Below the pieces are notes generated by a model. The model did not search any database and was not told where the DNA came from. It saw only the letters and a list, made by a program, of their open reading frames with translations. The translations under genes and the position numbers were made by a program. Of a stretch of 64,000 nt of DNA, positions 3,782 to 63,201 are shown in pieces; within the stretch, counting starts at the first letter, position 1; every line of letters begins with the position of its first letter. This DNA comes from a virus: positions 101,128 through 165,127 of IMG/VR virus record IMGVR_UViG_3300027833_000001; one strand, 5' to 3'.

Positions 3782-4759
3782 ATGGCTGGCCCAATTACAC
3801 TAAAAGCAAGTTCGTACCCTGCAACCGCGGCAACAATCCAAGGCGTACGGGAACTTTCTTCTGCTGAAATGAGAGATCATATCGCATTTGTTATTACTAA
3901 TAAGTTTGCTGGTGATCACGATGGGACTGGCACTGCTGAATTAGATACTATTACTGGCTCATTGACTTCTGGATATACTGAAGTAGGTACTTTCACAAAC
4001 AGAGAGCGTGATGAAGCAGTCGGAACTCATCCTGCAAGTGGTAACATGACCACAACAACGTATAGAATTCAACAGAAAAATACTGTAGTTTCTGAAAGTG
4101 GCGTTGTAAGACCACTCAGATATACTGGTGGAACCATTGAAGAGATGTCTGATGGAGAAATTGACACTGAATTGCTAGATGAAGTTATTGCGGCAATGGT
4201 ATTTGAAGATGCAAACACAGTCGGACAATATCATATCAAAACTACCGCACCAACTGGCGGCACATGGGCAGTACGTGATACTATTACTGAAACTCAAGTT
4301 GATGGTACAGACGTAGCATACAATCTTTATCAAAAGACTGCTCCTACAACTGCCGCGGCTACTAATATTAACCGCTTGTTGAAGAGTGATGGTACTGGCG
4401 GTAGTGCTGAGATGACTGACGCAGAAATGGAAACTCTTGTATCTTCATTCAGAAATAGAATTATTGCTTCTGGAATAGGAACGTATCTATTGAACAGTGG
4501 ATCACCTAGTGCCTCTGGAACGTGGGCTCAAATGGGTTCAACGATGACTGACCAATTAAAAACTATTTCAGCACAAAACTATTCTGGTGGTTATACAGGA
4601 TCATACACTGGTTACTATAATAGATTCTTTTCTGGATTCTTAAATGGCGCATATGCCGGTTCGTACTCTGGTACATACACAGGAACATATGCAGGTAACA
4701 CAGTACAATCATCATCATCAACACAAGAAACTAAGGCACTATTCGTAAGAACTGCCTAA
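3782..4759 (+). CDS. structural protein with Tyr-Gly repeats
   Basis: 325 aa, no enzyme motif. The body has several alternating segments containing SSAEM or SDGEI-like helices followed by beta-rich stretches (three related copies, residues about 20-110, 110-190 and 200-260). Near the C-terminus, residues about 265-310, a run of YxGxY units (GGYTGSYTGYYNRFF, then YAGSYSGTYTGTYAG) stands out. Such YTG repeats occur in structural proteins of marine T4-like phages. It is probably a virion or fibre component. It begins 11 nt after the previous stop with an AGAGGA ribosome site. Confidence 0.7.
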   Translation: MAGPITLKASSYPATAATIQGVRELSSAEMRDHIAFVITNKFAGDHDGTGTAELDTITGSLTSGYTEVGTFTNRERDEAVGTHPASGNMTTTTYRIQQKNTVVSESGVVRPLRYTGGTIEEMSDGEIDTELLDEVIAAMVFEDANTVGQYHIKTTAPTGGTWAVRDTITETQVDGTDVAYNLYQKTAPTTAAATNINRLLKSDGTGGSAEMTDAEMETLVSSFRNRIIASGIGTYLLNSGSPSASGTWAQMGSTMTDQLKTISAQNYSGGYTGSYTGYYNRFFSGFLNGAYAGSYSGTYTGTYAGNTVQSSSSTQETKALFVRTA

Positions 4760-4838: not shown

Positions 4839-5285
4839 ATGTCAGAAGAACAACCTAAGTACAAAAACCCCATTTGGCTAAACAAAGAGAATCGCTCAAT
4901 TGAGTGTGACATTCTCTATGGCAAAGAATATCAACGAAGCATAATCAATGCAGGTCCAGCTTCAGAAGGATATGTCAATAGAGATTATGATCAGATTATG
5001 ATAGACATCGGTGAAACGGAAATTGATCGTCTTACAGTCATAGATGATGAAAGTAAAGCCGAAGCGGTTGTGAAAGCAAAAGAACAAGAAGAAGTTCACA
5101 AGAATAGAATCAAACAAGAAACTCTATTTGAAATTAAACTTGAGGCTTTTGAAATTCCCATCATCAAAAATTCTAAAAATTCAGAAATGAAGAAGAAAAT
5201 TCGTAGGGCAAAGAACCCACTAGAGGTTACTGCATATGCGACAATACTCATACAAGAAGAATTAGGTGCTGTAATAGATGACTAA
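4839..5285 (+). CDS. hypothetical protein, possible fibre accessory or chaperone
   Basis: 148 aa. The N-terminal half (NPIWLNKENRSIECDILYG) resembles small proteins that accompany fibre genes in marine T4-like phages. The C-terminal half is strongly charged and helical (residues about 70-140). No catalytic motif is seen. The ATG has a clear GAGGA ribosome site, and the end overlaps the following glycosyltransferase start by 8 nt, so the two are likely co-translated. A fibre assembly role is a guess from position. Confidence 0.6.
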   Translation: MSEEQPKYKNPIWLNKENRSIECDILYGKEYQRSIINAGPASEGYVNRDYDQIMIDIGETEIDRLTVIDDESKAEAVVKAKEQEEVHKNRIKQETLFEIKLEAFEIPIIKNSKNSEMKKKIRRAKNPLEVTAYATILIQEELGAVIDD

Positions 5286-6015
5286 GGGCTACGTTTATGT
5301 GGCTTCTCTGAAAAAAGACTATTACTATGCCGCCAAGCTGTCGGCACTATCTTTATTAGATTTTTATCCAGATGCCAAAATTACACTATTCACTCATGCC
5401 GCGTGGGTTGAATTAGATGACTTCAAAATATTTGATCAGATACGAACAACGGATCTTATGGGTGTCGATATGCCCGTCAATAATCGTGCCAAGCTGTGGG
5501 CATTATCACAGACTCCATATGACTTGACAATGTACCTTGATTGTGACACCATGATAGAAGATGGAGATATACGATTTGCGTTTGATTTTATTAGAGAACA
5601 TGACATAATATTCACTAGAAATAGACCGTACAACGCCAAGATCACTAAGCTAAATGATGAAGATGAGATGATCTACCATTGCGGTGTATTCGTATATAGA
5701 AACACTGACGCAGTAAAGAAATTAATGGATGACTGGTATTACTACTACAGAATCCAATGTGCGCCCGCGCATGATGTGAGTCCTTATCCCGAAGCAGTTA
5801 AACCATGGGATACATTTACAATGTGGTACTTACTAAATAAAACGAAGCACAAAGAAACTATTAATGTAGGAGAGTTTCCATCACCTGATGCTAGATGGAA
5901 TTTTGTCATGGGTCAACGACCTGAAGAATTGGAAGGTAATGATGTAGTTGTGAGACATTACCTATTAGATAGGCACTTTAATTCAAATGAAACTATTAAC
6001 GAACCTCAATCCTGA
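5278..6015 (+). CDS. GT-A-type glycosyltransferase-like protein
   Basis: 245 aa. Its N-terminus (YVYVASLKKDYYYAAKLSAL) has the pattern of an alpha/beta nucleotide-sugar fold, and a DxD metal-binding motif DCD lies at residues 88-90 within a beta strand (MYLDCDT). The later CGVFVY stretch and an acidic-aromatic C-terminal half fit GT-A enzymes of the GT8 or related type. It is the only plus-strand member of a group of five such genes around the fibre module. Likely role: transfer of a sugar to a phage structural protein or host glycan. Donor and acceptor cannot be read from sequence. It overlaps the next gene by 29 nt. Confidence 0.7.
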   Translation: MTKGYVYVASLKKDYYYAAKLSALSLLDFYPDAKITLFTHAAWVELDDFKIFDQIRTTDLMGVDMPVNNRAKLWALSQTPYDLTMYLDCDTMIEDGDIRFAFDFIREHDIIFTRNRPYNAKITKLNDEDEMIYHCGVFVYRNTDAVKKLMDDWYYYYRIQCAPAHDVSPYPEAVKPWDTFTMWYLLNKTKHKETINVGEFPSPDARWNFVMGQRPEELEGNDVVVRHYLLDRHFNSNETINEPQS

Positions 6016-6637
6016 ACTGTTAGAACGCCTTGACCGCTATCGAAATTGGTTTGATGAGCAAGACGATATCAATACAATTATTCCTGATAAAGATAGAGAA
6101 GGTACACATACACTAGAAAGTGCAACATCTCCAGAGTATCTAAAAGAAGTACAAAAAGATACACACGCAGGCACACCAGAATGTGCTATAGTTACTGACT
6201 TTCATATAAGTGATGGCTCACCTACAAAGTATCGAAATGCTTCCCTAGAGTTATGTACAGACGTATGTGCATTTTTAGGAGCAAAATTTACTGCCGTTCA
6301 TGCATATTATCCAGCAGATGGATTTATGGGATGGCATTGTAATTGGGATACTCCTGGATATAATATTCTTTTGAGTTACAGCGAAAATGATCAAGGCTTC
6401 TTTAGGTATACAGATAAAGAAGGTAACATTGTAACGATGTATGATACACCAGGATGGTCAGCTAAGGTTGGTTATTTTGGAGGCAAAGATGAAGACGCAT
6501 CTAATATTGTTTGGCATTGTGCGGGAAGTAAATTGCCTAGACAGACATTAGGATTCGTCATTCCAGATAGAGATATGTGGCAAATGATGATAGATGATAT
6601 AGATGATAAACCTTTTAATAGAAGTCTATTCCCATGA
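5987..6637 (+). CDS. 2OG-Fe(II) oxygenase-like double-stranded beta-helix protein
   Basis: 216 aa. The core at residues about 105-195 has the layout of a 2-oxoglutarate/iron oxygenase: a YPADGFMGWHCNWD stretch with a candidate first histidine, a glycine-rich strand, then WHCAGSKLPRQTLGFVI with a candidate distal histidine and the Arg that binds 2OG. The position normally holding Asp of HxD is Asn here, with an Asp two residues later. Activity is therefore uncertain. Its start lies 29 nt inside the glycosyltransferase gene and its stop overlaps the next small gene (ATGA), which suggests translational coupling. Confidence 0.6.
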   Translation: MKLLTNLNPELLERLDRYRNWFDEQDDINTIIPDKDREGTHTLESATSPEYLKEVQKDTHAGTPECAIVTDFHISDGSPTKYRNASLELCTDVCAFLGAKFTAVHAYYPADGFMGWHCNWDTPGYNILLSYSENDQGFFRYTDKEGNIVTMYDTPGWSAKVGYFGGKDEDASNIVWHCAGSKLPRQTLGFVIPDRDMWQMMIDDIDDKPFNRSLFP

Positions 6638-6804
6638 AGAGTCGATGGGAAGTCTGGAAACACGCTCTAGGTTCTTTTGATGAAGAAGATGGGTACGATG
6701 CACTTAATGAAGATCGCATAGCATTAATAAGAACTTTCATAGTGGGTTCTAATTTACTATGCGCTTACGTCATTATAATTAATATCATTGTTGGTTGGTT
6801 CTAA
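6634..6804 (+). CDS. small membrane protein (56 aa)
   Basis: Starts in an ATGA overlap with the preceding stop. The translation begins MKSRWEVWKHALGSF and ends in one hydrophobic segment of about 20 residues (LLCAYVIIINIIVGWF). The WEVWKHALGSF motif is one I associate with small proteins of marine T4-like phages, from memory. It has a single predicted membrane span with an acidic N-terminal part. It is convergent with the minus-strand methyltransferase, the two ends overlapping by 4 nt. Function unknown. Confidence 0.75.
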   Translation: MKSRWEVWKHALGSFDEEDGYDALNEDRIALIRTFIVGSNLLCAYVIIINIIVGWF

Positions 6805-7499
6805 AAGAAACCTTCTCGTTGACCTATAATCATAAATCGGTCATATACTTTCTTGCCTTCCCATGAGTAATAAGTTTGCTGTCTAGTACCTTCATATCCA
6901 ACTTCATCGATTCCAACTTGATCTTTTAAATCAGCGATACTACTTACACAGTTAATACCGTACATCTCTTCAATAACATTACTATTTTGTACTGCAAGAA
7001 CAGCATTTGGATTCTTTGTAGTCAATTCTTTAAGTGGATACATTTGTTCTGTACACATACAGATAACTAGGTCAACATCAATCTTATTTAAATTTTCAAA
7101 TTCAAATGGAACATCTAGATTCCAATGACGAATGTTTACAAATTTTTCTTGGGCGTAATACTTGTGAAGAATTTTAGATAACTCAATCGACTCTTCATCA
7201 ATATCTACCATGTGTATTTGTGATACATCAATGTTCTCACATAGCAACGGTACTATAGGCATACCTAGCCAAGAGTTTAATATCAGTACTCTCATAGAAC
7301 CAGTTTTAGTGTAGTACTCTTCCATGTACTCTTTAACTTCTTCTATTAGCCAAGTGCTGGCTTCCATGTTGTTGCCTTCTAGTGACTGTCTAAAGTCAAC
7401 CAGCTTATGTGGCATTCGTTTTTCAATAACCGAGAGTGCTTCACCCCAGTTTTTAAAGTTGTTTAGAAAATTATAATTTAATTCTTTAGAACTTGACAT
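6801..7499 (-). CDS. SAM-dependent methyltransferase-like protein
   Basis: 232 aa from the chosen ATG at 7499 (peptide MSSSKELNYNF), which has a GGGGA/AGTGAAG leader; an upstream in-frame ATG at 7571 would add 24 residues that overlap the previous gene and look non-coding. The middle has a Rossmann-type motif I strand (RVLILNSWLGMPIVPLL) and an acidic strand end (IHMVDIDEES) as in class I methyltransferases, then DLVICMCTEQ as a motif IV candidate. It is the last gene of the minus-strand glycosyltransferase operon. A role in methylating a sugar or another small acceptor is inferred. Confidence 0.65.
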   Translation of the reverse strand: MSSSKELNYNFLNNFKNWGEALSVIEKRMPHKLVDFRQSLEGNNMEASTWLIEEVKEYMEEYYTKTGSMRVLILNSWLGMPIVPLLCENIDVSQIHMVDIDEESIELSKILHKYYAQEKFVNIRHWNLDVPFEFENLNKIDVDLVICMCTEQMYPLKELTTKNPNAVLAVQNSNVIEEMYGINCVSSIADLKDQVGIDEVGYEGTRQQTYYSWEGKKVYDRFMIIGQREGFF

Positions 7500-8160
7500 C
7501 TTCACTTTTCCCCATTGAGTCAAAAATACATACGTATGGTAGATCACGATACACATGAGATTCAGTATCATGTGGATGGATAAAACCTTGATTGAAACTA
7601 TACACCCAACCTATTGGGAATAGTTTAGTTTTTACAATTCGTCTATTATAGAAAAAGTTATCCAGACCACGATAATACCATAATATTTGAGACTTGTATT
7701 GATTGAAATATTCAGTGATTTCATTACTATTTAGACTATCATTCCAACGAAGAACTGACGAATTTAAATCAGTGTACTTATGTGGAATGTGGCGTGTATC
7801 TTTGTATTGAGTCTCTAAGTCGTGCCACCATGTTTTAACGAAACATAAACAATCTTCAGGATCAAAGTTTGCTATATCATCGATGTTCTTTTGTAGTATA
7901 GTATCTAAATCAAAGAACATCTTTTCACCTCTTTGAGTAACAATAGTCTCATCGAAGAGGTACATTTTATTCCACCACTTCTCCAATTTGTTACCACCAG
8001 GCAATGAAAGTATTTTAATATCAGAATTTATATCTTTACTATCTTCAGTTAGACAATGAAACGTAAAATCTATTGTCAGGTTCTCAAGACAACTTTCATA
8101 TAGTTGATTGACATGAGATGCATTATATTTTGTACCCCATTTTACAGTATAGATATTCAT
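7486..8160 (-). CDS. glycosyltransferase-like protein, DLD type
   Basis: 224 aa from the ATG at 8160, which overlaps the upstream stop as ATGA; the longer in-frame start at 8172 is less likely. The N-terminus (IYTVKWGTKYNASHVNQLY) repeats in the neighbouring genes and marks one family. The metal-binding DLD sits at residues 84-86 (MFFDLDTILQ), followed by NSSVLRWN and a GWVYSFNQG segment shared with its neighbours. It is a GT-A-like transferase of unknown donor. Its 3' end overlaps the methyltransferase by 14 nt. Confidence 0.7.
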   Translation of the reverse strand: MNIYTVKWGTKYNASHVNQLYESCLENLTIDFTFHCLTEDSKDINSDIKILSLPGGNKLEKWWNKMYLFDETIVTQRGEKMFFDLDTILQKNIDDIANFDPEDCLCFVKTWWHDLETQYKDTRHIPHKYTDLNSSVLRWNDSLNSNEITEYFNQYKSQILWYYRGLDNFFYNRRIVKTKLFPIGWVYSFNQGFIHPHDTESHVYRDLPYVCIFDSMGKSEDVKF

Positions 8161-8975
8161 TCGCCTCTCCAATGTCTAAGAAGTTCTGGATGGGAGAGAT
8201 CATCTTGTTTAGTACTTCCTCTACTTGCATCTTCAAATGGTAGTAAGTCAATATTAAATACACAGACAATACAGTGTTCTCTATACTTGGCTACATTCAA
8301 ATCATCTTCATCCCATGATCTACCTCTATTCCAAGAGTATGCCATCCAAGATGGAAAATGATCCCATAAGTCTTCACCATATCTACCCCATTTCCATGAG
8401 TGGTAGTTATCAGTTCCATCTGTATATGTAAACCATATCTTCTTTTGGTTTGCCATCACATCATCCCAAATACACTCACATTGATCATCTGACCATACTT
8501 TACATGAGCCATTTGTATACGCTCCATGTGATAGTTTAAATCTTCTTGTTTGCATTGGTTTAGGATCTTGCCACCACGATTTCATTTTTGTGGGTCTTTC
8601 CATATTGTATGTAATTATAGGAGTTAAGTCACCTTGAATAATTACATCTAAGTCAAAGAACACAAAGCGACCACTAGGTTTATCAGGAGCAAAGTTGTGC
8701 GTGTTGAATACAAAAGTCTTTGCTCTGTCCCAACACCTTGCCATTCCATACTTAAAATCTTCAGCACCAAACCAATACTTAGGATGTATGTCTGGAATAT
8801 CTGGGAAGTCAATTATCTGAACATCATCATCGATACCCTTAGCATCATCTGTATAGCAATAGAAATGAAACTCAAACTGATCGGGAGTATTTCTCTTTGC
8901 CATCTCTTTCAATCTGTTTACAAAATGTGGTCCATATTTCGTACCCCATTTAGCACATACATAATTTACTCTCAT
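8157..8975 (-). CDS. glycosyltransferase-like protein, DLD type
   Basis: 272 aa. Same family as its neighbours: N-terminal VCAKWGTKYGPHFVNRL, the DLD at residues 108-110 (VFFDLDVIIQG), a CWDRAK motif at about 81-86, and the late WMAYSWNRG segment. The start overlaps the stop of the 833-aa gene (ATGA), and its own stop overlaps the next start, so the operon is translationally coupled. It probably transfers sugars in the cytoplasm to a phage or host acceptor. No signal peptide or membrane span is seen. Confidence 0.7.
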   Translation of the reverse strand: MRVNYVCAKWGTKYGPHFVNRLKEMAKRNTPDQFEFHFYCYTDDAKGIDDDVQIIDFPDIPDIHPKYWFGAEDFKYGMARCWDRAKTFVFNTHNFAPDKPSGRFVFFDLDVIIQGDLTPIITYNMERPTKMKSWWQDPKPMQTRRFKLSHGAYTNGSCKVWSDDQCECIWDDVMANQKKIWFTYTDGTDNYHSWKWGRYGEDLWDHFPSWMAYSWNRGRSWDEDDLNVAKYREHCIVCVFNIDLLPFEDASRGSTKQDDLSHPELLRHWRGE

Positions 8976-11473
8976 TTACATTTACCACATTTCATTGTAC
9001 ATATATTCAAAGGCTTTCTCTTTAGATGTTCGCTGATATTAGCAAAATCTGTATTGTGTATTACTTCACCTGTAGTAAAACCTGCTAAGTTATTATACTT
9101 CATATTGTATGGATAGTCAATAGGGTGATATGGTAAAAGTTTATTTTCTACTACATCTCTTGCAATGAACGCACAAGGAAAAGCATTACTAGACGAACCA
9201 ATATAAAAGTATCCACTTTTTCTAGCATCACACCATACTGGATCTTTTTCTTTCATTTTTGGTTTAGTTGTTCTTATTTCATTTTTCTTTGCAAACTGCT
9301 TTAGGGTGTGAAAGTCTATTGGTTTATCTTTTGCAATAGTATTTTCAATTTGATTCTCTTGTTCTGACTTTAACTCAGGCAGTACTTTTTGTATATGATC
9401 AACATATACAAGAGACTCAATATCACTAAATGTTTGTAGGGTTATAGTAATATTTTTGTCTTTTAAGTACTTACAGATTTCTTCTAACTCTACACAGTTT
9501 ACTGGGTCTGTTATTTCACACATAAAAGTTACCCAAGAAACTTTGTAACTATCGAATATATTTTTTATACTCTTTAGAGTGTGTTCATTACCGTCTACAA
9601 AAATGTCATTGAACTCTATGTTCGTATCATTCTGGCGAGTACTCAATTGTATCAGTGCGCCATCTGGTTCTTCATCTTCATATAGACCACGATATAAGTC
9701 ACTGTATTGTTCTCCATGCATTTGGAAATATTTTATGAGTGTATTTGTATCATCATTTTTCTGATTCATTATAGAAAGCAATTCTTCTTTAGGCATGATG
9801 TTGTATAATCGCTCAAAGACTTTCTCATAATTTTCTTTGTAAAACAATTCTTTTAGATATTCGATATAATATTTTTTATATAGCGATTGAACCTCATCCG
9901 AATCTGTATCCCAGAAGATACACTGAATACCATTGTCTACTACATTCTTCATAAAGTCTACTTTAATTGTTGGTAAAGTATTTTTATGCCACATTCTTCT
10001 ATACAATGCGATTGCTTGTAGTCTAGTTATTTTCCAAAAGTATCTTACTGGTCCGTGTACTTTTACTTCTTCTGCTACAACTTTGTGCATCTTAGAAATA
10101 TATCTTTCTTTGTAGAAATCATATACTTCCATTACAGTTTTGTTCCAGTACAATGATTCGTCACCATTTACAAGCATTGAGTCATCTGGATAATCAGCAA
10201 TAAACTTCTTGTGCATAGAAATCATATCGCCAGTTTCATAAAGTTCTTTTATGGTCTGTAAATGTATTGAATCTATTTGTCTAATAAATGTAGTATCTGA
10301 TATTTCTCTTTCCAATTCTGGAAGAGATTTCTTTATATCGTCTACATTACCAGTTAAGTGTGCATCTATCTCTGGAAAATCATTTACGAATTTATTTACA
10401 AGAGACTGTAAATCATTGCTCTTTATCAGTGATTCAATATCTTCAACAACCTCTTTATTCATAAAACGATTCTCTAACATTTCATCTGTCAGAGATTTCA
10501 TTCCTAACCATTCTTTTAGAGTGTTGAAATTTTTTGAGTACTGATCCCAATCAGACCGTAGGCTAGGCAAATCTTTTGCAAATTTCTTTTCTAGTGTATC
10601 GTAGTCTTTATTTGTAAGAAGATTATCAATCTTAACCGTGTGCTTGTTTCTAGTAAAGAAGTTTTTAGGAAATTTAGGTAACCATAACTTTTCAAATTCA
10701 TCTTTGCCGTGCCAATGTATTAATAGATTGTAATTCTTTAGTTCGTGTGGTTTAACACCAGACGTATTCTTACCAAGCATATCGACATTGAACAGAGCAA
10801 ACTTTGCATTATCTCTATACAAGTTTTGTGAAAGATCATCTGGATATTGTTTGCCTCTATTGTAAGAGTACACCCAGTCTACTGGTAAGAAGTTCCAGTA
10901 ATTATCACCCACTGTTTGATGTTCTCTATATGGATAATAATTGTCGGTGCCTTTATAGAATGTTTTGAACACAACATCACTATGTGCCATAACATCATCA
11001 TAAATCTTTTCACCCTGATCAGTACACCACAACATCACACTAGAGTTATATAGTGATCCTTTTATATCTAAGAATCGTCTATCTTTAATTACAGAGGGAT
11101 CTTCCCAATGAGAATAGATCATATGAGGAGACTTTGCGAGTTGTTCTATTTCGTCAATGTTGTTTTGTATTATGATATCTAAATCAAGATAGCAGAAAGG
11201 ACCTTTTGTTTTTAGCCATCGATGTGAATTGAGCATAAGAAACTTGGCTCTATCCCAACAGTAATTCTCTTCACCAAACCAGTATCTAGGATGTAATGGC
11301 TTAACATTAGGAATTGGGCGAGTAGTAATACCCTTATTGATACCTTCTGGCTCATCTGTATAGCAGATGAATTTAAAACGCTTTGTATAATTGCGTTTGA
11401 CCATTCCGTGAAGGTTGTTTACATATTCTGCGGTATACTTGTTACCCCATTTTATGCATAGAAAGTGCATCAT
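8972..11473 (-). CDS. fusion: glycosyltransferase, helical repeats and SPASM-like Cys-rich end
   Basis: 833 aa, about three times the length of its paralogues. Residues 1 to about 285 form a DLD glycosyltransferase (DLD 97-99; CWDRAK about 72-77; WVYSYNRG later). The middle, about 285-590, is helical and holds four divergent units of the form L-N-D-Y/L-xxL-xxKF-xxDxP. Residues about 620-833 contain a (beta/alpha)-like stretch (VSWVTFMCEITD, then ITITLQTF) and a cysteine-rich tail (C of VWCDARKSGYFYIG; FPCAFIA; ICTMKCGKC). That tail resembles the SPASM ends of radical-SAM proteins, but there is no CxxxCxxC cluster motif. It starts 32 nt inside the preceding gene. Confidence 0.65.
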   Translation of the reverse strand: MMHFLCIKWGNKYTAEYVNNLHGMVKRNYTKRFKFICYTDEPEGINKGITTRPIPNVKPLHPRYWFGEENYCWDRAKFLMLNSHRWLKTKGPFCYLDLDIIIQNNIDEIEQLAKSPHMIYSHWEDPSVIKDRRFLDIKGSLYNSSVMLWCTDQGEKIYDDVMAHSDVVFKTFYKGTDNYYPYREHQTVGDNYWNFLPVDWVYSYNRGKQYPDDLSQNLYRDNAKFALFNVDMLGKNTSGVKPHELKNYNLLIHWHGKDEFEKLWLPKFPKNFFTRNKHTVKIDNLLTNKDYDTLEKKFAKDLPSLRSDWDQYSKNFNTLKEWLGMKSLTDEMLENRFMNKEVVEDIESLIKSNDLQSLVNKFVNDFPEIDAHLTGNVDDIKKSLPELEREISDTTFIRQIDSIHLQTIKELYETGDMISMHKKFIADYPDDSMLVNGDESLYWNKTVMEVYDFYKERYISKMHKVVAEEVKVHGPVRYFWKITRLQAIALYRRMWHKNTLPTIKVDFMKNVVDNGIQCIFWDTDSDEVQSLYKKYYIEYLKELFYKENYEKVFERLYNIMPKEELLSIMNQKNDDTNTLIKYFQMHGEQYSDLYRGLYEDEEPDGALIQLSTRQNDTNIEFNDIFVDGNEHTLKSIKNIFDSYKVSWVTFMCEITDPVNCVELEEICKYLKDKNITITLQTFSDIESLVYVDHIQKVLPELKSEQENQIENTIAKDKPIDFHTLKQFAKKNEIRTTKPKMKEKDPVWCDARKSGYFYIGSSSNAFPCAFIARDVVENKLLPYHPIDYPYNMKYNNLAGFTTGEVIHNTDFANISEHLKRKPLNICTMKCGKCK

Positions 11474-12101
11474 AATATTTCTGTCTCAAATTAACGGTAG
11501 TTTCACTTTGTCCGTTCAGTAGTACTATAGGATATTCTGGTAATATCTGATACGCTCTAGGTGAAGTATCAGTCTCAGTATCTACACCACATAAAAATGA
11601 ATAAATCATATTTTTAGGAAATGTTCTTTGAATCAATTTTTCATGGAATAAATACCAATCATCATTGTCTTTATATTTAGTCATGTAGTAATCAATGTTT
11701 TCTAGCCAATCATCATATATCAAAGATGGGTGTTTTTCATCTGAATTCCATGTCATCACCGAAGAGTTGTATTTACTTCCAAAATCTTTCCAGTAGGTTT
11801 GACATATAGTTGGCTTATCACAGTAAGAAAAGAATTCATATATGTCACATTGTAACACAATATCTAGGTCTAAGTAAAGAACTTCACCAATATTTTTTAG
11901 ACTAAATAGTTGTATCTTTCTCCAATTACTTTCAATATCTTCATTAATGAATTTAACATCTATTTCAGGTCGAAGTAAATGTGCATGGTCTGAAGTAGTT
12001 AAACAAACATAATTATATTCGCCACGAGTACTATCATATATTCTATGTACGTCATCAACGCTATACTTATCTCCATACAGAAGGGTTAGGATTGTCTTCA
12101 A
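11442..12101 (-). CDS. glycosyltransferase-like protein, first gene of minus-strand operon
   Basis: 219 aa. Start is TTG at 12101 with GGAG seven bases before it; the residues that follow (KTILTLLYGDKYSVDDVHRIY) line up with the N-termini of its paralogues, which supports this start. DLD lies at residues 78-80 (LYLDLDIVLQ), followed by NSSVMTWN. It is the shortest and most promoter-proximal of the four minus-strand transferases. The gap to the divergent plus-strand gene is only 52 nt, and no convincing minus-strand promoter is visible in it. A TTG start may keep expression low. Confidence 0.68.
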   Translation of the reverse strand: MKTILTLLYGDKYSVDDVHRIYDSTRGEYNYVCLTTSDHAHLLRPEIDVKFINEDIESNWRKIQLFSLKNIGEVLYLDLDIVLQCDIYEFFSYCDKPTICQTYWKDFGSKYNSSVMTWNSDEKHPSLIYDDWLENIDYYMTKYKDNDDWYLFHEKLIQRTFPKNMIYSFLCGVDTETDTSPRAYQILPEYPIVLLNGQSETTVNLRQKYYDALSMHKMG

Positions 12102-12118: not shown

Positions 12119-12126
12119 TATAAATA
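12119..12126 (+). promoter_or_regulatory. late promoter TATAAATA
   Basis: Exact octamer 27 nt before the ATG at 12154, in the divergent spacer between the minus-strand operon and the second fibre block. Confidence 0.75.
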
Positions 12127-12153: not shown

Positions 12154-12480
12154 ATGGCAACGGTAAATAATATCGTGATTGATCAGGGCACTACCTTTTC
12201 ATTTACGGTCAATCTTACGAATGACGATGGTACCAAGAAAGATTTGACGAATTATGCCGTCACTTCTCAGATGCGTAAAAGTTATTACACTACTACTTAT
12301 ACGTCATTCACTACAGCGAAAATAGATTTAGAAGGTCAGATTACTATATCTTTGACCGCCGCTCAATCATCTGCTGTAAAGGCTGGAAGATACGTTTACG
12401 ATATTGAGATTGCTAGTTCAACTGAAACATTGAGGATTATGGAAGGAATTGTGACTGTAACTCCGGAGGTTACAAAGTAA
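12154..12480 (+). CDS. virion structural protein, BppU N-terminal-like fold
   Basis: 108 aa. The pattern IDQGTTFSFTVNLTNDDG, then LTNYAVTSQMRKS, and a closing beta strand (AGRYVYDIEIAS) is that of small Ig-like domains at the start of baseplate upper proteins and fibre-attached proteins. No enzyme motif is seen. It begins the second fibre block, behind a late promoter, and its stop overlaps the next start (TAATG). The baseplate or fibre role is inferred from fold pattern and position. Confidence 0.65.
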   Translation: MATVNNIVIDQGTTFSFTVNLTNDDGTKKDLTNYAVTSQMRKSYYTTTYTSFTTAKIDLEGQITISLTAAQSSAVKAGRYVYDIEIASSTETLRIMEGIVTVTPEVTK

Positions 12481-44062: not shown

Positions 44063-44336
44063 ACCAGACTACAAGTTTAGGGAAGATGAACTATTAGAGG
44101 AGTTCAAAGCCTACATAGATAAGACCTATCAGGGTCACTATGGTCAGGGTGGACTCCAATCTTCCGAAGTGATTGTAGATCGTGGTCATGGTATGGGGTT
44201 CTTCCTTGGTAATGTCGATAAGTATAATGGTCGATATGGCAAGAAAGGAACTCCAGTAGATCACCGAAAAGATATTGTTAAGATTATCCATTATGGTTTC
44301 TTGGCATTGTATGAACACGATAGGAAAAACAAGTGA
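44052..44336 (+). CDS. DUF3310/SaV-like protein
   Basis: 94 aa, overlapping the AAA+ gene by 11 nt. The segment GMGFFLGNVDKYNGRYGKKG followed by DHRKDIVKIIHYGFLAL matches the core of DUF3310-type proteins, common small proteins of phages sometimes annotated nucleotide-kinase-like. No P-loop is present. Function unknown. Ends in a GTGA overlap with the ketosynthase gene. Confidence 0.72.
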   Translation: MKNKPDYKFREDELLEEFKAYIDKTYQGHYGQGGLQSSEVIVDRGHGMGFFLGNVDKYNGRYGKKGTPVDHRKDIVKIIHYGFLALYEHDRKNK

Positions 44337-45451
44337 GTAGATTAGCCATTACAGGAATAGGTTTAGTAGACAACCTCGGGAACAACCCCGTGGATTGTTT
44401 TGCCGAATACCAAACAGGTGTTTTGGCGCCGCCAGTAAATGGTTCGTTTTCTGCCCAGAAAGATAATCTGACTGAAGTAAAAGCTCCGATGTACAATAGA
44501 CTATTGGACATTAATAAGCTATCACTTCACGCTGTATCCGATGCACTGAATCCTGATATAGAATTTTCAGATAATGTGTTTACTCTATTCTCTACACTAA
44601 CTGCCGGTAACACCACGTTCCAGGACTATGGTTCCGATCTTAGTGATGGAAAGAACAGAGTTAAACCTAAGCAATTGCTACAGGGCTGTAGGGACTTCAC
44701 TGCGGGATTGATAGCACAAACATATGGATTTACAGGTGGTGCTACCAGTATGAACTCTGCTTGTGCTACCAGTATATACCAGTTAGACTATGCATTTCAT
44801 CTAGCAAAACGATATGACTATGTGATATGCGGTGCTGGTGACTCTGCAAATAATTTATGGGATACAACTTTCTTTGAGAAGTTGGGTGCCCTAGGTTCAA
44901 AGTCTGCTCCATTTGATAATGATCGTGATGGAATAATCACAGGTGAAGGAGCAGGCTGTTTAATTTTGGAAGATGTAGATAAAGCTAAAGCTAGAGGAGC
45001 ATACATCTATGGGTACATCCATGAACCTGGTCTAGCAACTGATGGCGTCCATGCAAACTTTGTTAACCCTTCTGATTTTGGTTTGACTAAAGCAATGAAG
45101 ATTGCTACTGAAGGAATCGATCCAAATCATATAGCATTCGTAGCCGCTCATGCTACTGGTACTGAGGAAGGTGATGTTCTTGAATATGAAGCGATACAAA
45201 ATGTACTTCCGTATAAAGATGTTGTGGGATTCAAGTCTAAGCTAGGACACACCATGGCAGGTAATGGAATAATAGAATTAATTTATTCGTTAATGGCATT
45301 AAAATCTAATATAATTCCACTTACGCATATAAATAACACCGAGTGTAGATACGTTACTACAAAAACCCGTGCAACTGAATGTAAGTACGCACTCAAAAAC
45401 AGTTTAGGCTTTGGAGGGAAAGCCGCTTCTATCTTAATTGAGATAGATTAA
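44333..45451 (+). CDS. beta-ketoacyl-ACP synthase (FabF/KAS II-like)
   Basis: 372 aa, starting at GTG 44333 in a GTGA overlap. The Cys-His-His catalytic triad of KAS I/II is complete: C144 in MNSACATS, H273 in AAHATGTEEGD and H306 in SKLGHTMAG. The acyl-pocket DRDGIITGEGAG stretch (about 198-209) and the terminal KNSLGFGGKAASIL loop are also intact. It is about 40 residues shorter than FabF, the trimming being mainly in the first 100 residues. Condenses acyl groups with malonyl-ACP. Phage purpose unknown: membrane lipid, lipid A or a specialised acyl product. Confidence 0.92.
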   Translation: MSRLAITGIGLVDNLGNNPVDCFAEYQTGVLAPPVNGSFSAQKDNLTEVKAPMYNRLLDINKLSLHAVSDALNPDIEFSDNVFTLFSTLTAGNTTFQDYGSDLSDGKNRVKPKQLLQGCRDFTAGLIAQTYGFTGGATSMNSACATSIYQLDYAFHLAKRYDYVICGAGDSANNLWDTTFFEKLGALGSKSAPFDNDRDGIITGEGAGCLILEDVDKAKARGAYIYGYIHEPGLATDGVHANFVNPSDFGLTKAMKIATEGIDPNHIAFVAAHATGTEEGDVLEYEAIQNVLPYKDVVGFKSKLGHTMAGNGIIELIYSLMALKSNIIPLTHINNTECRYVTTKTRATECKYALKNSLGFGGKAASILIEID

Positions 45452-62439: not shown

Positions 62440-63201
62440 ATGCATCTAGCAATCATTGGTTGTGGTTTCGTAGGCAGTACTTATAAGAAAGTTTTAAGTG
62501 AGAGACACCAGATTCATGTTGTTGATCCGGGCATAAATAATAATAAGATAACAGACCATTCAACGTATGATGGTATTATCTTATGTTTGCCTACTCCATC
62601 AAATGATGATGGATCGTGTGATTACTCCGCAATTGTCGATGTAATCGAGCAGATAGAAGACACAACAATTCCAATACTTATTAAGAGTACTATAAATATA
62701 GAGTGTTGGCAGTATATTGAAAAGAACTTTTCAAACCCATTTACATTCTCACCTGAATTTTTGCGACAAGCCTACGCAAGAAAAGATATCAGAGAAAATA
62801 AAAGAATAATATTTGCTGGAAATAATTCACATTTTTGGTGGAAAGTGTTCTATGTTTGTAGCGATTTTACATATAAAGAGTATTGTCATACCACAGATGT
62901 AGAAGAAGTTATTCTTACTAAATATGCAATCAACGCATTTTTAGCAACAAAAGTAGCATGGTTTAACCAGCTATATGATTTTTGTGAAGAACATGGATTA
63001 GACTATGAAAAGGTCAGAAATCACGTATCATCTGACAACAGAATTGGACCAAGTCACACGAAAGTAACTGAAGAACGTGGATTTGGGGGTGCGTGTTTTC
63101 CAAAAGACACTTTAGCACTCATGGAAATGGCGAATCATACAGATACGCTATCAATACTAGATTGTGCCATAGGGTACAATGACACGATTAGATCCTCGTA
63201 G
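62440..63201 (+). CDS. UDP-glucose/GDP-mannose dehydrogenase, short form ending in tRNA gene
   Basis: 253 aa; full enzymes have about 390-450. The Rossmann start HLAIIGCGFVGSTY (GxGxxG), LCLPTPSNDDGSCDYSAI, and the catalytic Cys in GFGGACFPKDTLAL (about 210-223) are present, but the C-terminal nucleotide-sugar domain is missing. The stop TAG lies inside the tRNA-Arg gene. A two-domain short form may still act on nucleotide sugars or bind as a dimer; truncated versions occur in marine phages. Fits the glycan theme. Confidence 0.8.
   Translation: MHLAIIGCGFVGSTYKKVLSERHQIHVVDPGINNNKITDHSTYDGIILCLPTPSNDDGSCDYSAIVDVIEQIEDTTIPILIKSTINIECWQYIEKNFSNPFTFSPEFLRQAYARKDIRENKRIIFAGNNSHFWWKVFYVCSDFTYKEYCHTTDVEEVILTKYAINAFLATKVAWFNQLYDFCEEHGLDYEKVRNHVSSDNRIGPSHTKVTEERGFGGACFPKDTLALMEMANHTDTLSILDCAIGYNDTIRSS

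Follow-up and report, generated by a model that had tools for sequence, protein, structure and literature searches.

A cassette of five minus-strand genes in the fibre region of an uncultured marine T4-like virus is an inherited unit that has been passed on vertically and not by recent transfer, and four of its genes are paralogous glycosyltransferases (GTs) with K-W-G-x-K-Y and DLD motifs. Judged from its sequence, one of them, GT2, is a glycosyltransferase fused to a broken-down radical-SAM enzyme of which a putative iron-sulphur tail has been kept, a fusion that appears to be new within the collections and literature searched. We propose, at a little under an even chance, that the cassette builds a glycan on one of the proteins encoded by the adjacent fibre/tail module. 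The window, by which we mean the whole stretch of 64,000 nt that was analysed, covers positions 101,128 to 165,127 of IMG/VR virus record IMGVR_UViG_3300027833_000001; the terminase is only about 50% identical to those of isolates.

An earlier note on this DNA had described five overlapping minus-strand genes (6801-12101) as the only substantial block on that strand, with a GT-like gene (5278) and a 2OG-like gene beside it. The open reading frames were confirmed, with overlaps of 4-32 nt between adjacent cassette genes; the remaining long open reading frames of the window lie on the plus strand, and both neighbours proved to be conserved partners. The locus contains the following features:

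3782..4759, plus strand: fibre-region repeat protein (p3782) with C-terminal Y-x-G repeats
4839..5285, plus strand: p4839, conserved partner flanked by p3782 and GTp
5278..6015, plus strand: GTp, distinct GT-like gene beyond the cassette, present in island-less relatives too
5987..6637, plus strand: OG, 2OG-oxygenase-like, left boundary of the cassette
6801-7571, minus strand, probable start near 7499: MT, class I methyltransferase-like, last cassette gene
7486..8160, minus strand: GT4, glycosyltransferase with DLD (phrog_1962, E 2e-9)
8157..8975, minus strand: GT3, with DLD, most conserved member
8972..11473, minus strand: GT2, 833-aa fusion protein
10688..11473, minus strand: GT2 domain 1 (aa 1-262), GT8-like GT-A domain with DLD (low-confidence homologue model)
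9668..10687, minus strand: GT2 helical insert (aa about 263-602)
9248..9667, minus strand: GT2 truncated radical-SAM-like barrel (aa about 603-742), without CxxxCxxC
8975..9247, minus strand: GT2 SPASM/twitch-like domain (C748, C767, C825, C829, C832)
11442..12101, minus strand: GT1, first cassette gene, GT-A type glycosyltransferase with DLD (phrog_1962, E 2.4e-11)
12119..12126, plus strand: T4-type late promoter TATAAATA, serving p12154, in the divergent gap
12154..12480, plus strand: p12154, right boundary; the C48C1 homologue is annotated 'L-shaped tail fiber protein assembly'
62440..63201, plus strand: nucleotide-sugar dehydrogenase, N-terminal and central domains only (TIGR03026, E 3e-41; PF00984, 5e-21), a possible donor supply

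Across 149 IMG/VR loci in three clades, the cassette occupies the same junction, between OG and p12154, and in 77 island-less loci, phage C48C1 included, OG adjoins p12154 directly with nothing between them. Relative to the C48C1 lineage, the whole cassette has been either gained or lost together. Where the island is missing, the Y-rich repeat protein still has GTp and OG as companions, and this protein measures 324-443 aa in cassette carriers versus a median of 1566 aa in island-less relatives. The earlier note had also suggested transfer as a unit, and a recently transferred mobile island would fit the lower GC content of the block (0.31-0.37), its confinement to a single strand and its clean presence or absence relative to C48C1-like phages. 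Because the junction is fixed in three divergent clades, GC3 (0.24-0.29, genome 0.21-0.36) is not foreign and cassette divergence tracks that of core genes, with GT3 diverging about as far as the terminase (78-79% versus 74-75% identity in clade 2), a recent arrival of this kind is very improbable, and we do not retain that part of the earlier reading. The sole genome match pointing to a bacterial origin came from a Flavobacteriales MAG contig, which is in fact phage DNA that was misbinned.

The two motifs reported earlier for the four glycosyltransferases were recovered as LYGDKY, KWGNKY, KWGTKY and KWGTKY, and as YLDLD, YLDLD, FFDLD and FFDLD. GT3 and GT2 are 39% identical (E 3.9e-54), and PHROG 1962 'glycosyltransferase' matches GT1 (2e-11), GT4 (2e-9) and GT2 (6e-5). 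The DxD motif is invariant both across 33 aligned GT2 homologues (D97, L98, D99) and among 10 GT3 homologues (DLD, D108-D110). GTp was rejected as a member of the GT1-GT4 family, for which hhalign gives no support. The fold model of a GT2 homologue has a mean pLDDT of 54.5 and is usable for parts only (an earlier 833-aa GT2 model from 14 sequences, with a mean pLDDT of 39.5, was discarded). Its N-terminal GT domain, itself of low confidence, matches GT8/GT24-type GT-A enzymes, with Foldseek values of 7e-5 for glycogenin and 3e-5 for UGGT and VIA Z 7-8.3 for LARGE1, GT8 3tzt, glycogenin and LgtC. We infer that the GT domain belongs with these enzymes, with a predicted activity to match. The cassette glycosyltransferases share the DxD motif with GT8/GT24 enzymes (LARGE1, glycogenin, LgtC, UGGT) and, as predicted from this low-confidence model, may share their GT-A fold, whereas no solved structure matched them significantly by sequence. 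Nothing credible came from searching the PDB by sequence with GT3, MT or the C-terminal part of GT2, and tblastn found no relative of GT2, GT3 or MT among 50,697 deposited phages. PHROG 1962, the Pelagibacter phage Mosig glycosyltransferase and P1 PmgQ / P7 HdmD are distant relatives of GT1 or GT4, but they are about 30% identical, lie in other genomic places and carry no fusion. Sequence gives weak grounds for the claim that the fifth gene is methyltransferase-like: profile matches are all sub-threshold (Methyltransf_12; Spermine_synth at 0.03, or 0.0056 with a homologue), but a Rossmann-like motif is kept in all homologues and MT is retained as the last gene in all clades.

GT2 is a four-part fusion, which the first note had overlooked, and consists of a GT8-like domain, a helical insert, a truncated radical-SAM barrel and a SPASM/twitch domain. 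The insert is missing from short homologues and spans about 250, 352 or 426 aa in others. The barrel motif CX3CX2C is gone, the site reading x-N-D-T/S with a variable first residue and being Cys-free in all homologues; in clade 3, where the module forms a protein of its own and the GT part of that protein has no DLD, the cluster-binding loop is likewise lost. Residues 248-444 of the modelled GT2 homologue match SuiB (Z 10.5), BtrN (8.6) and MoaA (8.4), albeit in a low-confidence model. An hhalign chain ties the GT2 barrel to radical SAM via the clade-3 protein, which aligns with a genuine phage radical SAM family at E 9e-5 (controls 0.17-0.43), and together these results provide moderate evidence that the GT2 barrel is related to radical SAM barrels. 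Five SPASM-like cysteines (C-X18-C ... C-X3-C-X2-C) are invariant in 33 sequences; the clade-3 module retains only three Cys. Pfam SPASM (PF13186) matches 7 of 10 members (best 1.9e-4), and the window's own GT2 copy alone gave no Pfam SPASM match. The module resembles the SPASM/twitch radical SAM enzymes SuiB, BtrN and MoaA by its fold match and its SPASM-type cysteine pattern, but is truncated in the barrel, devoid of the radical-SAM cysteines and fused to a glycosyltransferase.

A specific though unlikely proposal is that GT2 is a protein glycosyltransferase that has lost radical chemistry and kept the iron-sulphur domain for docking or redox sensing, recognising a polypeptide acceptor, with the module standing alone elsewhere beside a dead GT-like domain. 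If true, the recycled radical-SAM/SPASM module would represent a new means of targeting glycosylation that phages apply to their own fibres.

The cassette is under purifying selection (omega 0.03-0.15). GT3 is 73-94% identical across clades (omega about 0.04), and a conservation close to that of the terminase is expected if the acceptor is constant. GT1 is the fastest-evolving member (38-99% identity across loci) and is exchanged by recombination; at one locus it is 99% identical, while its neighbouring cassette genes are 87-94% identical. In the mechanism that we propose, GT1-GT4, as putative GT8-type enzymes, would add sugars in turn from NDP-sugars onto one acceptor, most likely a protein of the adjoining fibre/tail module, and MT would methylate the product. 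The constant GT3 would perform a common step and the variable GT1 would set a terminal, strain-specific sugar, whereas the dead radical-SAM/SPASM module of GT2 would serve in substrate binding or docking and not as a radical enzyme. The enzyme that this module matches best in structure, SuiB, modifies peptides, which speaks for the model.

The earlier reading of a GT/methyltransferase cassette beside fibre genes holds, and the evidence on its target points both ways. Remodelling of a host surface glycan (LPS O-chain or core), which would block adsorption of competitors or of progeny to debris, has a sizeable chance of being correct, if a minority one. It is the published reading of GT8-rich pelagimyophage fibre regions, as a change of the host O-chain (PMC7029224), and has been proposed also for jumbo and cyanophage clusters (PMC7824862). 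The fold matches include the LPS galactosyltransferase LgtC, GT1 varies and undergoes exchange, and SAR11 phage Mosig has its distant GT homologues beside nrd genes, away from fibre genes. Cytidylyltransferase-like, FkbM methyltransferase and fatty-acid desaturase genes occur inside the blocks of relatives; such accessory genes resemble surface-glycan or lipid pathways and were counted against the fibre model. So were the promoters of part of clade 2, where several loci carry a sigma70-like promoter (TTGACA/T-N16-17-TATAAT or TAATAT) before GT1, together with the island strand of the window, on which no late promoter was found. The promoter scan left out rows upstream of GT paralogues rather than GT1, and a sigma70-like site within GT2 (9120-9092), which overlies invariant codons, was taken as a coding coincidence.

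In clade 3, by contrast, the palindrome TATTTATAAATA reads as a T4-type late-promoter sequence on either strand, without exception among 33 unique sequences, and within these loci it is confined to the cassette/p12154 junction. Such a bidirectional late promoter would co-express the cassette with a fibre-assembly gene, favouring virion proteins as targets. Moreover, the block held no recognisable flippase, polymerase or ligase, GT3 varies very little for a gene engaged in an arms race over diverse host glycans, and the strict linkage to fibre genes would be left unexplained. Nucleotide-sugar genes, present with and without the island, were uninformative as a discriminator. We lean slightly towards fibre/tail protein glycosylation. 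Phage glycosyltransferases can glucosylate DNA, which counts for a further reading, in which the cassette would act on DNA bases or produce a small molecule, but the GT8-like fold and FkbM-type partners are not known from DNA glucosyltransferases. No base-hydroxylating partner was recognised beside the cassette, and we consider this reading improbable, even though secondary-metabolite clusters were proposed in a jumbo-phage survey (PMC7824862).

A GT cassette in a fibre region is an already reported kind of system. The host recognition cluster of pelagimyophages, likewise T4-like marine phages, contains several glycosyltransferases, mostly GT8, in the fibre region, and radical-SAM cassettes were noted there (mSystems 2020, PMC7029224). 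That cluster is described as hypervariable and non-syntenic (PMC7029224), whereas we found a fixed five-gene order, a fusion of a glycosyltransferase with a pseudo-radical-SAM-SPASM module, a precisely defined empty site and a late promoter specific to one clade. Mycobacteriophages Che8 and Rita encode glycosyltransferases thought to act on the phages' own virion proteins (cited in PMC11256854); the acceptor named there is a capsid protein, in other phage families, whereas here a fibre/tail acceptor is proposed from the genes. A vague class, the hypervariable-region glycosyltransferases of ocean phages, thereby becomes a defined, testable system with five genes, exact borders, an island-less relative and an unusual enzyme. 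Should the fibres be glycosylated, ocean T4-like phages would depend for adsorption and host range on sugars ignored by sequence-based host prediction; if a host glycan is targeted, the cassette would be a conserved competition-exclusion system. GT2, for its part, would show a use of the radical-SAM fold once its chemistry is lost.

Pfam and NCBIfam profile searches gave no match for the boundary protein OG. Among its homologues, H, H and R are invariant, and N, not D, is invariant two residues past the first H.

The earlier note described five overlapping genes as the only substantial minus-strand block of the window, and we found these ORFs at 6801-12101, with overlaps of 4-32 nt between neighbours and no other long block on that strand. 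Its motif claim was likewise confirmed: four of the genes, the glycosyltransferase-like GT1, GT2, GT3 and GT4, share K-W-G-x-K-Y (in GT1 the variant LYGDKY) and a DLD motif; the fifth, MT, is methyltransferase-like. GT1, GT2 and GT4 are matched by PHROG 1962 (glycosyltransferase), and GT3 is 39% identical to GT2. The window is the 3' portion of a 165-kb IMG/VR virus record, the terminase of which is ~50% identical to cyanophage terminases and which also encodes nucleotide-sugar enzymes. The window opens with the last part of a 2149-aa protein whose start lies before it (L266:7374-13823); this part is the first ORF.

IMG/VR scans with GT2, MT, the GT2 C-terminus, the neighbouring GT-like protein GTp and one clade-3 protein as queries yielded ~340 loci, some sharing a contig. 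The cassette start is divergent from p12154, a fibre-assembly homologue, in 149 loci. The order is GT1, GT2, GT3, GT4, MT and then, at the flank away from p12154, the 2OG-oxygenase-like gene OG and GTp, with these optional genes:

GT3-GT4 interval: cytidylyltransferase-like gene (5e-14)
GT3-GT4 interval: FkbM methyltransferase (5e-10)
GT3-GT4 interval: Methyltransf_24 (5e-11)
between GT4 and MT: fatty-acid desaturase (6e-15)

In one locus a GDSL-like gene separates GT2 from GT3, and five loci of one sub-clade (L009, L012, L016, L032, L110) have OG inverted onto the cassette strand. No relatives of GT2, GT3 or MT were found among deposited phages.

Because 77 loci, including phage C48C1 (Kyanoviridae; OG-p12154 gap, 64 bp), show the cassette-less arrangement repeat protein, p4839, GTp, OG, p12154, the cassette was gained or lost as one block at the OG/p12154 junction. 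Block GC is lower (0.31-0.37), with a GC3 (0.24-0.29) equal to that of the genome, and omega for the cassette genes is 0.03-0.15 in close pairs. Clade 2 identities to the window, which belongs to clade 1 of the three groups of carriers, are 74-75% for the terminase, 78-81% for GT3, 60-63% for MT, 54-59% for GT4 and 38-43% for GT1. Because GT1 of locus L006 is 99% identical to that of the window, compared with 87-94% for neighbouring cassette genes, GT1 is exchanged by recombination.

The GT2 homologues comprise, in clade 1, a GT domain, a helical insert and a C-terminal module; in clade 2 (438-478 aa), GT and module without the insert; and in clade 3, a GT gene and, encoded after it, a separate ~496-aa protein:

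L267:9153-10643 and relatives: GT-like domain without DLD, Cys-less radical-SAM-like barrel, SPASM-like end

The L267 contig (PCBP01000045.1), binned in a Flavobacteriales MAG, was rejected as bacterial; it is a misbinned T4-like phage contig. Deposited phages hold no match to this clade-3 protein.

In a fold model of a clade-2-type GT2 relative that is reliable in parts only (mean pLDDT 54.5), residues 1-246 match LARGE1, GT8 3tzt, glycogenin and LgtC, and residues 248-444 match SuiB (Z 10.5, top row), BtrN (8.6) and MoaA (8.4). Pfam SPASM matches 7/10 C-terminal members (best 1.9e-4). Across 33 GT2 homologues five cysteines are invariant, and the radical-SAM CX3CX2C position reads x-N-D-T, its first residue variable. 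In the clade-3 protein, TPN replaces DLD in all 73 full-length sequences, no cysteine motif remains in the radical-SAM loop and just three SPASM cysteines are kept. The C-terminal parts of this protein and of GT2 are homologous (hhalign 98.7%, 2e-16), and that of the clade-3 protein is also similar to a genuine radical SAM family encoded by its own phage (E 9e-5 versus 0.17-0.43 for controls). The basis for its N-terminal GT-likeness is a weak hhalign alignment (E 8e-4 over 43 columns). Because of these fold matches, SPASM matches, cysteine patterns and clade-3 alignments, we read the GT2 module, with moderate confidence, as a decayed radical-SAM/SPASM enzyme kept as a non-radical part.

The T4-type late promoter sequence TATAAATA precedes p12154 whether or not a locus carries the cassette. 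Clade 3 shows it as the palindrome TATTTATAAATA into which it has developed, reading TATAAATA also towards GT1 (33/33 unique sequences) and confined to this junction within the fetched clade-3 loci. Part of clade 2 has sigma70-like promoters upstream of GT1 (scores 10-13, equalled in 0-4 of 100 shuffles). Neither type is clear before GT1 in the window. Because of this difference between predicted sequence motifs, cassette timing would vary among clades or be misread in one of them.

Such genes have been read as altering the host O-chain (PMC7029224). A protein acceptor in the fibre module seems slightly more likely, though not decisively so, because of the fixed fibre-gene link, the clade-3 late promoter, how little GT3 varies, and an origin of the GT2 module in a peptide enzyme.

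The repeat protein measures 324-443 aa in carriers but is mostly far longer in island-less relatives (median 1566, up to 3347 aa), a contrast that may reflect lineage history only. In C48C1 the 3347-aa protein (L102:16012-26055), directly ahead of GTp and OG, consists mostly of Y-x-G / Y-S-R / S-T-R repeats, has homologues of highly variable length in many loci and is a possible acceptor of GTp/OG modification.

Elsewhere, the genome has eight radical SAM matches, three being N-terminal-twitch proteins (NF033640, 1e-93 to 2e-103) within an array (L263:8485-16410, genome 54.5-62.4 kb). Two paralogous proteins follow, 16394 (no Pfam/NCBIfam match) and 17977 (no Pfam match). A fatty-acid desaturase lies at L263:3878-4609, and 44333-45451 encodes a FabF-like beta-ketoacyl-ACP synthase (TIGR03150, 6e-55, under the TIGR03150 cut-off).
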